A model generated the notes under the pieces. The model did no database searches, had not been told where the DNA came from, and was given only the letters and a program-made list of their open reading frames with translations. DNA of 64,000 nucleotides from Undibacterium sp. CCC3.4 (GTDB lineage Bacteria; Pseudomonadota; Gammaproteobacteria; Burkholderiales; Burkholderiaceae_D), in assembly GCF_034347425.1 (NCBI RefSeq), contig NZ_CP133779.1, forward strand, positions 310,001 through 374,000, in the 5' to 3' direction. This document shows positions 27,287 to 47,346 of the stretch, piece by piece. A program made the translations under genes and the position numbers. Each line of letters begins with the position of its first letter. Within the stretch, counting starts at the first letter, position 1.

Positions 27287-28541
27287 GTGTGACGCGGCCA
27301 TCCGCGGCTTGCACCCGATTGCGACCATGATTCTTGGCCACATATAGGGCTTGGTCGGCGCGCTGCATGAAATTTTCCAGTGTATCGATGGGTTTTTTTT
27401 GTGCCACACCGAAGCTGGCGGTAATCTGCAGCATCGTGCCGTCTGCCAGCGGCACGACCAAGGCCTGTTCAACCGCGGCACGCATGCGCTCGGCCACCTC
27501 GACGGCGGCGATCAAGCTGGTTTCCGGCAACACAACGACGAATTCTTCCCCGCCATAACGGACTACCCAATCTGAGTCAGAGCGCAAATTATCTTTGATG
27601 CAGTTGGCAAAAGAAACCAAGACTTTGTCTCCAACCGCATGGCCATAGCTATCGTTGACGCGTTTGAAAAAATCGATATCACAAAACAGCACTGACAGTT
27701 CGCGCACATAGCGCGTCGCACGCTGCATTTCGGTCGGCATACGCTGATTGAACAGCAAGCGGTTGTAACAAGCGGTCAAGCCATCGGTAATCGACAATTT
27801 TTCCAACGTAGACATGGCGTTTTCGAGTTGCTCGGTGCGTTGCAACACCAACTGATCTTGCTGCGAAATATGTTTTTGTATGCTCTCTTGCATGGTTCGG
27901 AAACCATCGATGACAAGATCAATTTCATTGTAGGCATGGCCGGGCGGCAAATCCAAAGCCAGCGGCGTGGAAATTTGATTGGCTTGTAAATTTTTAACGA
28001 AATCGGCCAGTTGCCGCATCGGTCTTTGCAAATCCTGCCGCAATACCGCGACCAAGGCGATCAGGATGAAGATGGCCAGTACCAGCACTTCAATGAATAC
28101 GACGATGAAATTGCGCAGCAATTCTTCGCGCAAGCGGCTGCGGTCTATCACCAGCTCCAGCACGCCCAAGGCTGCGGTGCCCTCGGTTTGCGCGGGTATG
28201 TCAAATTGCAATATTTGCCCGTTGCTGCGCAATTCACGACGCCCACCTTCGAATTGCTGACCGGTAGAGGCACGAATATGTGCGTAAATGATAGGGCTGT
28301 TTTTCACCAGCAAGCCGATTTGCTTTTGTATCGCCTGCGGTTCAATATCCCAGATCGCCAATGACAATAAGGGCAGGTGCGTTTGCACGACATCATTGAT
28401 GGTCATGTCAAAATTCTTTTCAATCGCCCGGTAATTGAGCCAAGCCTGCAGGCTGCTGAAAGCGATGATGGCCAGCATGACCCATTTGAACACACGTCGT
28501 ATCAATAAGCCGGCTATTGGTTGCAAGGGGGTAATGCTCAT
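27258..28541 (-). CDS. Membrane diguanylate cyclase (GGDEF) with periplasmic domain
   Basis: The enzyme makes cyclic-di-GMP from two GTP. The 427-residue protein has a transmembrane helix at about 16-36, a periplasmic domain of about 110 residues and a second helix near 146-165. A HAMP-like linker with a coiled coil follows to about residue 250. The GGDEF domain starts at LSITDGLTACYNRLLFNQRM and has FCDIDFFKRVNDSYGH and the active site RYGGEEFVVVLPE. The inhibitory I-site position five residues before GGEEF reads SDSD rather than RxxD, so product inhibition may be absent or altered. The gene is coupled by ATGA to an upstream periplasmic binding protein gene, which probably supplies the ligand signal. 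Confidence 0.93.
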   Translation of the reverse strand: MSITPLQPIAGLLIRRVFKWVMLAIIAFSSLQAWLNYRAIEKNFDMTINDVVQTHLPLLSLAIWDIEPQAIQKQIGLLVKNSPIIYAHIRASTGQQFEGGRRELRSNGQILQFDIPAQTEGTAALGVLELVIDRSRLREELLRNFIVVFIEVLVLAIFILIALVAVLRQDLQRPMRQLADFVKNLQANQISTPLALDLPPGHAYNEIDLVIDGFRTMQESIQKHISQQDQLVLQRTEQLENAMSTLEKLSITDGLTACYNRLLFNQRMPTEMQRATRYVRELSVLFCDIDFFKRVNDSYGHAVGDKVLVSFANCIKDNLRSDSDWVVRYGGEEFVVVLPETSLIAAVEVAERMRAAVEQALVVPLADGTMLQITASFGVAQKKPIDTLENFMQRADQALYVAKNHGRNRVQAADGRVTLREIRDRAS

Positions 28542-43508: not shown

Positions 43509-46130
43509 TTACTTGGCAGTAATCGTAATCGGTACCAAGGCCTTGGCCGTGCGGCCGAGATTATCGGTTAGCGTGACGGTGAGCGTATAGTTGCCGGTGA
43601 CCGGTGTTGCCCAACTAGCCGTGATCACGATTGCCCCGGACAGCGAGAACGACATCCCCAACGGTGCGCCGGCAATCGAAATCGAGGCTGAACTGGCACC
43701 GACATCGACGATGCTGATGGTACCGCTAAGTGCTTTACCCAGCACACCGGTCATGGCGGGAGCGGTAATCACCGGCCCGACCACGCCGGCTGCGGTGATA
43801 CTGACCGTGTACACGCCCTGCCCGCTCAAACCGGTTTTGCTGTCTTTGGCAATCACTGTCACCGCATACGTGCCGGCCACTGGTACTGCCCAACTGACCG
43901 CACCGGCGCTACTGATCGTCATCCCGCTCGGGGCACCGCTCAAGCTGTAGCTGAGTGGATTACTAGCCGTCACGGATACATTGAAAGCCAAAGCCGTGCC
44001 GACTTTGCCGCTGATGGCCGCAGCATTCACCACCGGTGCAGGCTGCGCAGCAATTATCACGGTGTAGACCGCTTTGCCGCTTAAACCAGTTTTGGCATCG
44101 AGTGCCGTCACCGTCACCGCATAGGTTCCCAATACAGGGGTTGCCCATGTCACCACACCGGCCGTGCTGATCGTCATCCCACTCGGGGCGGCCGTCATGC
44201 TATACGTAACCGGATTGGCATTGACGACGCTGACAGTGAACGACAAGGCCGTACCGACTTTGCCGCTGATACTCGCAGCGCTGACGACCGGAGGCAGAGG
44301 CGCGGCAATCGTCACCGTGTAAATCCCTTTGCCGGACAGATTGGCTTTGGCATCGCTGGCGGTGACCGTGACCGTGTACGTGCCGGCCACCGGTACCGCC
44401 CAAGTGACGATCCCGCTGCTGTTAATCGCCATACCAGCCGGTGCGCCGCTCAAGCTGTAAGTAAGCGGATTGACCGAACTGGCCGAGACCGTGAATGACA
44501 AGGCCGTGCCGACTTGGCCGCTGATGCCGGCGTTGCCAACCACCGGCGCACTGACCGGAGCAGCGGCATTCAAGGCAGTCAGCAAGGCCGTGACATTCGG
44601 CGTACCGAGACCGGTAACCGGATCGTAACCGAGCTTGGCGGTGCAAGTCGCGCAAGTGCCGTCGCTGCCTTTGGTGATGTCAGCAAAGGCGCTGGCATAA
44701 CTGCCGGGAACGCTGGCAATTTTGGTGTACAGCATGGCATGCGGACCGGCTAAGGCGGCTTGGGCAGTTTGTGCTCGTACAGCATTGGCGACGGCGACGA
44801 TGCCGGCCCACTGCGGCGTCGACAAACTGGTGCCGCCGGCCGACAACCAGCTCACTGCCGTGCTGCCCGGACTGATGGTGGCCAAATATTGACCGGTATT
44901 CGGATCGGCATTGAATGAGACATCGGCCACCGTGCGATGGGCCGGCGAGCCCATGCCAGGTACGCTATTGTTTTGGTAAGCTGGGGTGACAGTATATGCA
45001 CTCATGCCGCCGCCAGTACCAGACCACGCCGTTTCCGCACGCGCACCAGTTCCCGAATACGTCAAGGAAGTGCCGCTGACGGCAAGCACATTGCTCGATA
45101 CCGCCGGCCAACTGACCGCTGCGCCACCGTCACCGGTGGCGGCGATGTAAGTCATCTTGGCAGCCGTAAACACGCTGTCAACCGAAGCCGTGTAACCGGC
45201 TTCGGCAGCACCGAAACTCATCGACACCACGCCGGGGCCCATGGCGTTGGCCAATTGCACGCCACCGATCAAACTGTTGAGCGAGGCATCGGGCGCTTCA
45301 ATCAACACGATCCGTGCCAGCGGTGCGGTCGCGTGGGCCCATTGGACGTCGAGCGCGATTTCAGTGGCCCAACCGGAATTATAAGCCGGTGCCGTCGTGG
45401 TTAAGGTACCGGATGCGGTGTTGTAAGCGACGATCAATTCACAGGAAGTCAGCGATGCAGCGGCCAAGGGCACGGAACTGACAGTCTTGCTGGTGCACGC
45501 TGGCAAGCCGAATTTTTGGTTAAACGTGCTTAATTCCAGGGCCGCATTCGGATCATGCTGTGCGTCAACGATGTAAATCGTTTGGCCGGCACCGAATTGC
45601 GCCGCCTGGGCCGCCGTCAGGCCGGTAAAACTGGCAGGCAAAGCCGGCAAACCGTAGGCTGCGCGAATTTGTGCCGGCGTATAGGTCGACACCACCGTCG
45701 GTGTCGCACTGGGCGTAAGGGTTTGGCTGACGGCCGACTCTTGTATGGTTTGCTGGGCGGAATGCAAAGTGGCGGCAGTCAAGCCGCGCGCGGATAAATG
45801 CTGGAATTGCACCGGAACAGTTTGCTGGCGCGGCGCCATCAGGGCTGAAACACTGCCATTACCCTGATCAATATCGGCCGGCACATCGAGTAATACCGGC
45901 GCGACGTGAAAGCTCGGTTGCGCGCTTTGCGTCAACAGCGGAATGTCACCCAAGCTCACTTCCAAAGTCGTTGATGCTGTTGCCGTTGCCGCCGGCGCAT
46001 CGGCCGCTGCGGTTTTGTTGTCAGTGCCGCTGCCGCTGCCACAGGCACTGAGCAAGCTCAGCAAGGCGGCGGCCAAAACAGTACGAGGAAAAACGACTGT
46101 CACTGCTGAGGGGGAAAATTTATGCATCAT
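43509..46130 (-). CDS. S53 (sedolisin) lipoprotein peptidase with four Ig-like repeats
   Basis: The 873-residue protein starts with a lipoprotein signal (lipobox LSAC, Cys30). A linker of about 115 residues that could be a very short propeptide follows. The sedolisin domain runs at about 148-525. The catalytic set is visible: Glu257 and Asp261 in GWATEIALDVQWAHA, the oxyanion Asp334 in AATGDGG, Ser435 in SAGGTSLSTPQWAG, and a calcium site in FADITKGSDGTCATC. From residue 528 four immunoglobulin-like repeats of about 84 residues follow (each starts PVV or PVI and has a GxxLSFTVS strand and an AVTVTAxD strand). The start is placed at 46130, where GGAG stands seven bases upstream; an upstream ATG at 46169 would break the signal. 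Expression is probably under the cyclic-di-GMP riboswitch just upstream. Confidence 0.9.
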   Translation of the reverse strand: MMHKFSPSAVTVVFPRTVLAAALLSLLSACGSGSGTDNKTAAADAPAATATASTTLEVSLGDIPLLTQSAQPSFHVAPVLLDVPADIDQGNGSVSALMAPRQQTVPVQFQHLSARGLTAATLHSAQQTIQESAVSQTLTPSATPTVVSTYTPAQIRAAYGLPALPASFTGLTAAQAAQFGAGQTIYIVDAQHDPNAALELSTFNQKFGLPACTSKTVSSVPLAAASLTSCELIVAYNTASGTLTTTAPAYNSGWATEIALDVQWAHATAPLARIVLIEAPDASLNSLIGGVQLANAMGPGVVSMSFGAAEAGYTASVDSVFTAAKMTYIAATGDGGAAVSWPAVSSNVLAVSGTSLTYSGTGARAETAWSGTGGGMSAYTVTPAYQNNSVPGMGSPAHRTVADVSFNADPNTGQYLATISPGSTAVSWLSAGGTSLSTPQWAGIVAVANAVRAQTAQAALAGPHAMLYTKIASVPGSYASAFADITKGSDGTCATCTAKLGYDPVTGLGTPNVTALLTALNAAAPVSAPVVGNAGISGQVGTALSFTVSASSVNPLTYSLSGAPAGMAINSSGIVTWAVPVAGTYTVTVTASDAKANLSGKGIYTVTIAAPLPPVVSAASISGKVGTALSFTVSVVNANPVTYSMTAAPSGMTISTAGVVTWATPVLGTYAVTVTALDAKTGLSGKAVYTVIIAAQPAPVVNAAAISGKVGTALAFNVSVTASNPLSYSLSGAPSGMTISSAGAVSWAVPVAGTYAVTVIAKDSKTGLSGQGVYTVSITAAGVVGPVITAPAMTGVLGKALSGTISIVDVGASSASISIAGAPLGMSFSLSGAIVITASWATPVTGNYTLTVTLTDNLGRTAKALVPITITAK

Positions 46131-46185
46131 GTCAACGCTCCGTAAGGGTGCAGGACGGCATATGCGCAACGAGATCAGGTCTGCG

Positions 46186-46272
46186 TTGGCAACCCCGCTG
46201 CCGTAGCGCTGGTGCGCCTTAGGCCGGTGGCTTTGCGTCGCCGTTTTTCAACGGGTTTGCCCTGTAAATCTA
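46186..46272 (-). ncRNA. Cyclic-di-GMP-I riboswitch (GEMM-I class)
   Basis: The minus strand reads the GEMM-I consensus almost completely. ACAGGGCAAACC is followed by a hairpin CCGTT-GAAA-AACGG with the GNRA tetraloop, then GACGCAAAGCC, ACCGGCCTAA, a second hairpin and finally GGCAGCGGGGTTGCC. These are the conserved blocks of the class I cyclic-di-GMP aptamer. It lies in the leader of the S53 peptidase gene, 56 bases before its ATG. The CAACGC at the 3' edge of the aptamer (46187-46182) is complementary to GCGTTG next to the GGAG ribosome site (46139-46134), so folding could hide the site. A weak promoter (TACAAT at 46297-46292) lies upstream. Confidence 0.92.
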
Positions 46273-46407
46273 TTTCAAACAATCAATGATAATTGTAGGA
46301 AATTTCCCAAAAAAATTCCACAAAGAAACTGTTAAACACTGCAAAAACGTCGTCTAAACAACACAAATTAACGTTTGCCTGATCAAATTTAACGATCGCC
46401 GCAGCCC

Positions 46408-47346
46408 TTAATCGAGTTCGGCCAAAACTTTGATGTGCGCACTGACGCTACGCCCCAGCGCCGCCAAGTTATACCCACCTTCAAGGCAACTGACGATGCG
46501 CCCTTGCGCGGTTTCACGCGCGACTTGCATGATTTGTTGTGTCAACCAGATGTAATCTGCTTCGACCAAGCCAAGCTGCCCCATCTCATCGTCACGGTGC
46601 GCGTCGAAGCCGGCGGAAATGAACAACATTTCCGGCTTGAATGTACGCAGGGCTGGCAACCATTGCTGCAACACCAATTCACGAATCGTTTCGCCATAAC
46701 TGTGCGCCGGCACCGGCACATTGAGCATGTTCGCGGCCGCCGACGTGGCGCCGCTGTAGGGGTAATACGGATGTTGAAAAAAACTGACCATCAACACCCG
46801 CTCATCGCCGGCGAAAATGTCTTCAGTGCCATTGCCATGATGAACATCAAAATCGACAATGGCGACCCGCTGCAAGCCACGTACTTCCAGTGCATGCTTT
46901 ACAGCAACGGCAACGTTATTAAACATGCAAAAACCCATGGATTCACGCGAAGTGGCGTGATGACCAGGCGGACGAATCGCGCAAAAGGCATTTTCGATAT
47001 TGCCATCAATCACGGCATCGGTGGCAGCCAACGCTGCCCCGGCGGCGCGCAGTGAGGCGCGCCAAGTAAAAGCATTGAGCGAGGTATCGGCATCGAGCGG
47101 AAAATGCGCGTAGTCCGAACCCTCGGCCGGGCAATTTTCACGGATACGGTAAATCGCATCGGCGCTGTGTACCCGCGCCAAGTCGCTTTCTTGCGCCAGC
47201 GGCGCGCTGCGATGGTCGAGCAAATCATGAATCCGGCTGGCGATGAGTTGATCTTCGATGGCCTGTAAACGGTCCGGCGATTCCGGGTGCCAAGCGCCCA
47301 TTTCATGGCGCTTGCAATCGGCGTGGGTGTAGTACGCAGTAGTCAT
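46408..47346 (-). CDS. Histone-deacetylase-family hydrolase (acetoin-utilisation/polyamine deacetylase type)
   Basis: The 312-residue zinc hydrolase starts MTTAYYTHADCKRHEMGAWHPESPDR. It has IRPPGHHATSRESMGFCMFNNVAVA near 126-150, holding the catalytic His-His pair, the zinc ligands in VDFDVHHGNGTEDIF near 167-181, and FISAGFDAHRDDEMG. Bacterial members remove acetyl groups from acetylpolyamines or proteins; the substrate here is unknown. A 191-base region separates it from the divergent MoxR gene. Confidence 0.92.
   Translation of the reverse strand: MTTAYYTHADCKRHEMGAWHPESPDRLQAIEDQLIASRIHDLLDHRSAPLAQESDLARVHSADAIYRIRENCPAEGSDYAHFPLDADTSLNAFTWRASLRAAGAALAATDAVIDGNIENAFCAIRPPGHHATSRESMGFCMFNNVAVAVKHALEVRGLQRVAIVDFDVHHGNGTEDIFAGDERVLMVSFFQHPYYPYSGATSAAANMLNVPVPAHSYGETIRELVLQQWLPALRTFKPEMLFISAGFDAHRDDEMGQLGLVEADYIWLTQQIMQVARETAQGRIVSCLEGGYNLAALGRSVSAHIKVLAELD

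Follow-up and report, generated by a model that had tools for sequence, protein, structure and literature searches.

What does a cyclic di-GMP (c-di-GMP) riboswitch do in front of a gene for a surface peptidase, and which way does it switch? The question is raised by a locus of Undibacterium sp. CCC3.4 (contig NZ_CP133779.1, positions 310,001 to 374,000; the whole stretch of 64,000 nucleotides (nt) is referred to as the window), in which the minus-strand leader of an S53 peptidase gene carries a c-di-GMP-I (GEMM-I) aptamer. A first-pass annotation had named the riboswitch class, its sequence blocks and its target, had proposed translational control through a CAACGC:GCGTTG pairing, and had called the peptidase an unusual member of the regulon. 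Our analysis indicates that the leader is probably a translational OFF switch for a surface-located S53 peptidase lipoprotein, working through a helix other than the one first named. The elements concerned, all on the minus strand, are as follows, with the basis of each in brackets.

46185..46271, minus strand: c-di-GMP-I (GEMM-I) riboswitch aptamer, RF01051 (cmscan, full model length)
46259..46264, minus strand: aptamer 5′ edge CAGGGC, 5′ arm of the alternative helix, holding the ligand-contacting G (pairs with 46156-46151)
46184..46188, minus strand: CAACG, 5′ arm of the conserved post-aptamer hairpin (pairs with 46171-46167)
46167..46171, minus strand: CGTTG, 3′ arm of the post-aptamer hairpin (covarying columns)
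46151..46156, minus strand: box GTCCTG before the Shine-Dalgarno (SD) sequence, GCCCTC in most relatives, 3′ arm of the alternative helix and also part of the SD-masking hairpin (pairing)
46131..46156, minus strand: predicted ribosome-site-masking (OFF) hairpin, GTC/GAC, TGC/GCG and CC/GG around the SD (minimum-energy fold)
46138..46141, minus strand: Shine-Dalgarno sequence GGAG (sequence)
43509..46130, minus strand: gene of the S53 peptidase, a predicted lipoprotein of 873 amino acids (open reading frame; ATG at 46130, stop at 43511-43509)

The aptamer was identified with Infernal at 46271-46185 as a match to RF01051 of 84.7 bits against a gathering score of 35 (E = 2.9e-15), covering model positions 1-87 of 87. 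No other Rfam match in the window exceeded the threshold, and no second RF01051 match was found in the 4.59-Mb Undibacterium genome. The GEMM-I blocks GGGCAAACC, a GAAA-capped hairpin, GACGCAAAGCC, CCGGCCTAA and GGTTGCC follow one another in order along the leader. The ligand-pocket residues are kept as G46260, C46189 and the A of CGCAAAGCC in our mapping to G20, C92 and A47 of Vc2, which takes position 46260 as G20. G20, A47 and C92 are described as key ligand residues of the c-di-GMP-I class in the portion of PMC9049102 available to us. As all three are kept, a pocket of the c-di-GMP type, rather than of the G20A type, is expected, and the leader would bind c-di-GMP. The genome contains 34 GGDEF matches, so the ligand should be made in the host; one of these GGDEF domains lies within the window itself (27315-27791, minus strand).

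The target was harder to place. As a single sequence it matched tripeptidyl-peptidase 1 only (1.1e-7) and no S53 model in Pfam or NCBIfam, the NCBIfam scan giving a sub-threshold repeat only. A profile of 18 orthologues matched kumamolisin-As at 3.7e-28 and sedolisin at about 1e-16, and E257, D261, D334 and S435, which we take to be the catalytic residues of the S53 family, are invariant in all 18. The same holds for Cys30 in the lipobox LLSAC, by which the target is a predicted lipoprotein; the peptidase would then be located at the surface. Pfam recognized three He_PIG stretches as immunoglobulin (Ig)-like repeats in the C-terminal third, and a fourth beta-sandwich is present at 787-871 in a structure model of low mean confidence. 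Because the predicted structure of the whole protein was poor in the catalytic part (mean predicted local distance difference test score 59.3), and the best 50 of 1838 rows of the fold search comprised cadherins, Ig proteins and other repeat or assembly proteins and no peptidase, the S53 assignment rests on sequence. The protein shares the E, D, D and S residues with kumamolisin and sedolisin and differs from them in being a lipoprotein with C-terminal Ig-like repeats and in matching no propeptide model: PF09286, which we take to be the S53 activation propeptide model, was not matched by the window protein in Pfam at E 0.001, and the lipobox is separated from the catalytic part by about 120 residues. 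The gene is the only one of its kind in the genome. An upstream TTG start at 46169 was rejected because it falls within the conserved hairpin and no SD precedes it. The riboswitch class, the ordered blocks and the S53 lipoprotein of the first-pass annotation are thus borne out, as are its four Ig-like repeats, the last of them in the low-confidence model only.

The pair of riboswitch and S53 gene recurs elsewhere in Burkholderiales and in Chitinibacteraceae. RF01051 is present in 33 of 43 genomes of the genus and in 153 of 392 genomes of the family. An S53 orthologue occurs in 20 of the 43 genus genomes, each time with the aptamer directly in front (20/20). Family-wide, an S53 match at E 1e-60 is present in 73 of the 392 genomes, and RF01051 is found somewhere in the genome in 56 of these 73; in one of the 56 (G097), the S53 match is weak (45%) and the riboswitch does not lead the gene. 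Among 399 genomes drawn across the order, six have the S53 gene; the aptamer stands before it in five and is missing in the sixth (G447), a relative of 46% identity. When named genomes were searched by protein alone, 11 S53 loci were obtained, eight of which have the aptamer in front, from Rhodoferax and two further Comamonadaceae, Undibacterium, Amantichitinum (Chitinibacteraceae) and others; among the remainder, L078 is cut by a contig end, and the loci of Duganella callida and Pseudoduganella flava have no aptamer. A plasmid search returned 44 records, every one below 60% identity. Of the GEMM-I leaders first read, which were fetched from best-scoring and chosen places and not as a random draw, 57 of 78 precede an S53 homologue; this count includes the window and takes L013 and L075 as two, L013 having then been removed as a letter-for-letter copy of the start of L075.

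The expression platform was read from 64 S53 leaders, grouped into 28 clusters, of which 40 leaders (28 plus 12 others) were aligned. The pocket G column is invariant across the 40, and three helices stand out. In the alternative helix, the aptamer 5′ edge CAGGGC pairs in the window with the box GTCCTG at all six positions, with one G-U, the box ending 20 nt before the start codon. The sister leader L031 has GAGGGC and GCCCTC instead, a compensatory change. Over the 40 leaders, 93.1% of cells are paired, compared with 34-55% in slid controls; four pairs show double changes, and neither the covariation score nor the number of double-change cells was reached in any of 500 shuffles, the pair types being reached in 31 of 500. 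Edges also fit their own boxes better than swapped ones, with a duplex energy of -10.25 kcal/mol for the own partner and -9.37 kcal/mol after swapping, a value reached by 15 of 20,000 swaps; a cruder measure of pairing length gave 51/5000. The duplex energy is best only in windows that end 8-20 nt before the start. The zone 16-32 nt before the start holds at least six pairs in 58 of the 64 leaders and 22 of the 28 clusters.

The sequence of the edge itself also sets these leaders apart. GAGGGC is the 5′ edge in 56 of the 64 S53 leaders (22/28 clusters), whereas a pattern search gave 48 other GEMM-I leaders, none of which has it. Twenty pattern candidates with more than three mismatches were dropped. 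On a protein tree, from which L064 was left out as too short, the GAGGGC label changes six times, four of these changes being forced by well-supported branches. The box partner follows the edge in four of the six lineages, namely the window, L056/L069/L128, L059 and L027 (with five pairs), and does not follow, or only partly, in those of L045 and L112.

The second helix is the hairpin CAACG/CGTTG directly after the aptamer, which is paired in 81.2% of cells (27-56% in slid controls) and shows 59 double-change cells, with a covariation score matched by none of 500 shuffles. The third, the predicted masking hairpin, appears in the minimum-energy fold of the post-aptamer part, its coordinates having been worked out by hand; the homologous hairpin is paired in 82.5% of cells, versus 25-46% when slid. 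When the box was blocked in silico, mean SD exposure over the 28 clusters rose from 0.24 to 0.38, whereas blocking other stretches gave 0.26 (Wilcoxon p 0.0007, uncorrected for kinship), and 18 of the 28 clusters showed a clear rise.

These helices suggest the following sequence of events. At low c-di-GMP, CAGGGC (46264-46259) would pair with GTCCTG (46156-46151), which would hold the box off the Shine-Dalgarno site so that the peptidase is made. With c-di-GMP bound, the 5′ edge and its ligand-contacting G would be locked in the aptamer and the box released, and the free box, folding together with the SD and the start region, would form a ribosome-blocking hairpin. The CAACG/CGTTG hairpin is compatible with either state and probably draws the two arms close to each other. 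Because the alternative helix uses the GGC core of the aptamer, it and the bound aptamer should be mutually exclusive in the cell. We infer an OFF switch, with a role for the peptidase at low c-di-GMP, because the alternative helix and the masking hairpin share the box and the ligand would lock the edge.

Several observations weigh against this assignment. Of 500 shuffles, 51 reached the masking hairpin's number of double-change cells and 57 its covariation score; the segment 46200-46122 folds no better than its shuffles (z 0.20), and its fold lacks that hairpin. Blocking the box gave no clear rise in SD exposure in 10 of the 28 clusters and changed nothing in the window itself (0.35 to 0.34). 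There, forcing the aptamer gave a mean unpaired value of the SD of 0.35 and forcing the alternative helix one of 0.23, compared with 0.25 unconstrained, so that the switch is not visible in the modelled folding of the window, which tends slightly in the opposite direction; the OFF direction therefore rests on comparison and not on energy. Pairing to the SD could alone explain part of the conservation of the box. Six of the 28 clusters fall short of six pairs (five in L027; four in L045, L064, L077, L112 and L125), and when the 28 edges were swapped onto the window's box, its own edge ranked second. Finally, in a genus group designated g40, RF01051 is missing from 17 of the 20 genomes that have the S53 gene, and these account for all 17 S53-bearing family genomes that lack it. 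The upstream regions of 12 of the 17 were read (L131-L141 and L144), and RF01051 was found in none of them even at E up to 0.5. The group includes Pseudoduganella flava (L134 lies within L081).

The absence of switching in the window's folds would be explained if the hairpin of box and SD were constitutive and set a low translation rate, the edge match being a by-product of shared likeness to the SD. GAGGGC does resemble an SD sequence, and the masking hairpin is widely paired; however, the compensatory changes track the 5′ edge in both the shuffles (0/500) and the swaps (15/20,000), and the GAGGGC edge is not a general trait of GEMM-I leaders (56/64 vs 0/48), which together make this account quite improbable. 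The same folds, which do not favour the OFF direction, are compatible with a translational ON switch, in which the pairing proposed in the first-pass annotation, CAACGC (46188-46183) with GCGTTG (46138-46133), masks the SD without ligand and is broken by ligand binding. The two 6-mers are present and exactly complementary in the window, and across the 40 leaders 57.5% of their cells are paired, slid controls attaining no more than 44%. This pairing was nevertheless reached by 36 of 500 shuffles and its weak covariation score by 26 of 500, CAACG has a nearer partner, CGTTG, with which it pairs and covaries better, and a fold in which the proposed helix was forced lay about 8 kcal/mol above the minimum. 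As the main switch helix, CAACGC:GCGTTG was set aside, and an ON switch appears unlikely.

Control might also be exerted on transcription or RNA stability instead of translation, for example by Rho-dependent ending in the leader. Functional class I switches of Clostridioides difficile act on transcription termination, according to the parts of PMC6366702 at hand. In the present locus, no intrinsic-terminator-like site was found on the minus strand in 46000-46500, all four such sites being on the plus strand, and the conserved helices converge on the SD and the start codon. We thus give such control a low probability, and the translational control put forward at the first pass, rather than an intrinsic terminator, is supported. 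As for the origin of the transcript, no sigma-70-like site was found in 46000-46500, so read-through into the leader may occur from the histone-deacetylase-like gene upstream (46408-47346, minus strand), which lies on the same strand and ends 136 nt before the aptamer.

We also compared the target of the leader with those of other GEMM-I leaders. Of 44 RF01051 matches in the genus, 34 were read and lead to 20 S53 genes, 12 HExxH peptidases, one S8 subtilase and one orphan leader. The S53 peptidase is therefore the commonest target among those read in the genus and that of the only RF01051 found in this genome, and its earlier description as an unusual regulon member is not supported. The motif HELGH is present in 11 of the 12 HExxH targets; in L049 it is broken across frames in the draft. 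Pfam reprolysin (M12) matches were mostly below the cut-off, with only L048 above it among 11 proteins scanned and none in L044. Most of the HExxH targets of L026, L032, L038, L039, L044, L046, L048, L051, L052 and L055 have PKD and/or PPC domains. By eye, HExxH leaders contain a GYCCUUUGUU-type box able to pair with AACAAAGG (or similar) at the SD, and an aptamer edge GGC (often RGGGC) able to pair with the start of that box. Leader L036 (G218:C1), a high-scoring GEMM-I of the HExxH type, has no open reading frame of at least 90 amino acids behind it and seems to have lost its gene. The S8 subtilase of the genus (L054; Pfam 1.7e-47) has bacterial Ig domains, as have those behind L065 and L066 outside the genus. 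Besides S8 subtilases, targets read outside the genus include SLT transglycosylases and DUF4402 proteins, those behind L061 and L067 being shorter than 200 amino acids, and a PilZ protein is the longest open reading frame after one leader.

Within RF01051, the present aptamer is regular in its full-length match far over the cut-off and in its mapped pocket residues; it differs in its S53 lipoprotein target and in the pairing of its edge, GAGGGC or CAGGGC, with the pre-SD box. The Vc2 riboswitch of Vibrio cholerae (tfoY) is a translational OFF switch with P1 as switching element, as far as the accessible text of PMC7371385 and PMC9262584 goes. The present leader is likewise of class I and is predicted to share the OFF direction and the use of an aptamer edge for switching; it serves another gene, and the likeness is one of described logic, not of a letter-by-letter comparison of strands. 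Mutually exclusive helices of the Vc2 type have comparative support across the leaders and are not seen in the window's own folds. A second parallel is Cdi1_12 of C. difficile, where the portions of PMC6366702 and PMC4591827 available report that zmpI, encoding the secreted protease PPEP-1, is repressed by c-di-GMP via a type I riboswitch. Both cases have a class I c-di-GMP riboswitch before an exported protease, but control is transcriptional and the enzyme a zinc metalloprotease there, whereas translational control of an S53 serine-carboxyl lipoprotein is predicted here. An S53 target of a riboswitch was not found among the open-access papers listed in the literature searches, none of which joined riboswitch and c-di-GMP with "peptidase S53", or riboswitch with kumamolisin; riboswitch and sedolisin co-occurred in one open-access paper (PMC9144310), in unrelated places of the text accessible. 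Given the Vc2 and zmpI precedents, the riboswitch class, the OFF logic and the idea of a protease target are already known, and the interesting part is the lineage-wide link between riboswitch and peptidase.

That link may extend beyond the S53 gene. In Undibacterium and its relatives, GEMM-I riboswitches might run a dedicated regulon of exported peptidases (S53, HExxH and S8), at least the first two having related platforms, in which a fall in c-di-GMP would release surface proteolysis at the level of translation; we put this forward tentatively, with rather more doubt than confidence. c-di-GMP usually decides between attached and free life, and such a regulon, if true, would be the riboswitch counterpart of the LapD/LapG and ZmpI routes of adhesin shedding. 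In this leader, covariation also makes the expression platform of a class I switch readable, and each of its pairs can be tested separately. A riboswitch-gated surface peptidase would link c-di-GMP to the remodelling of surface proteins without a protein receptor, by a gating that would be conserved before the S53 gene across several families of Burkholderiales.

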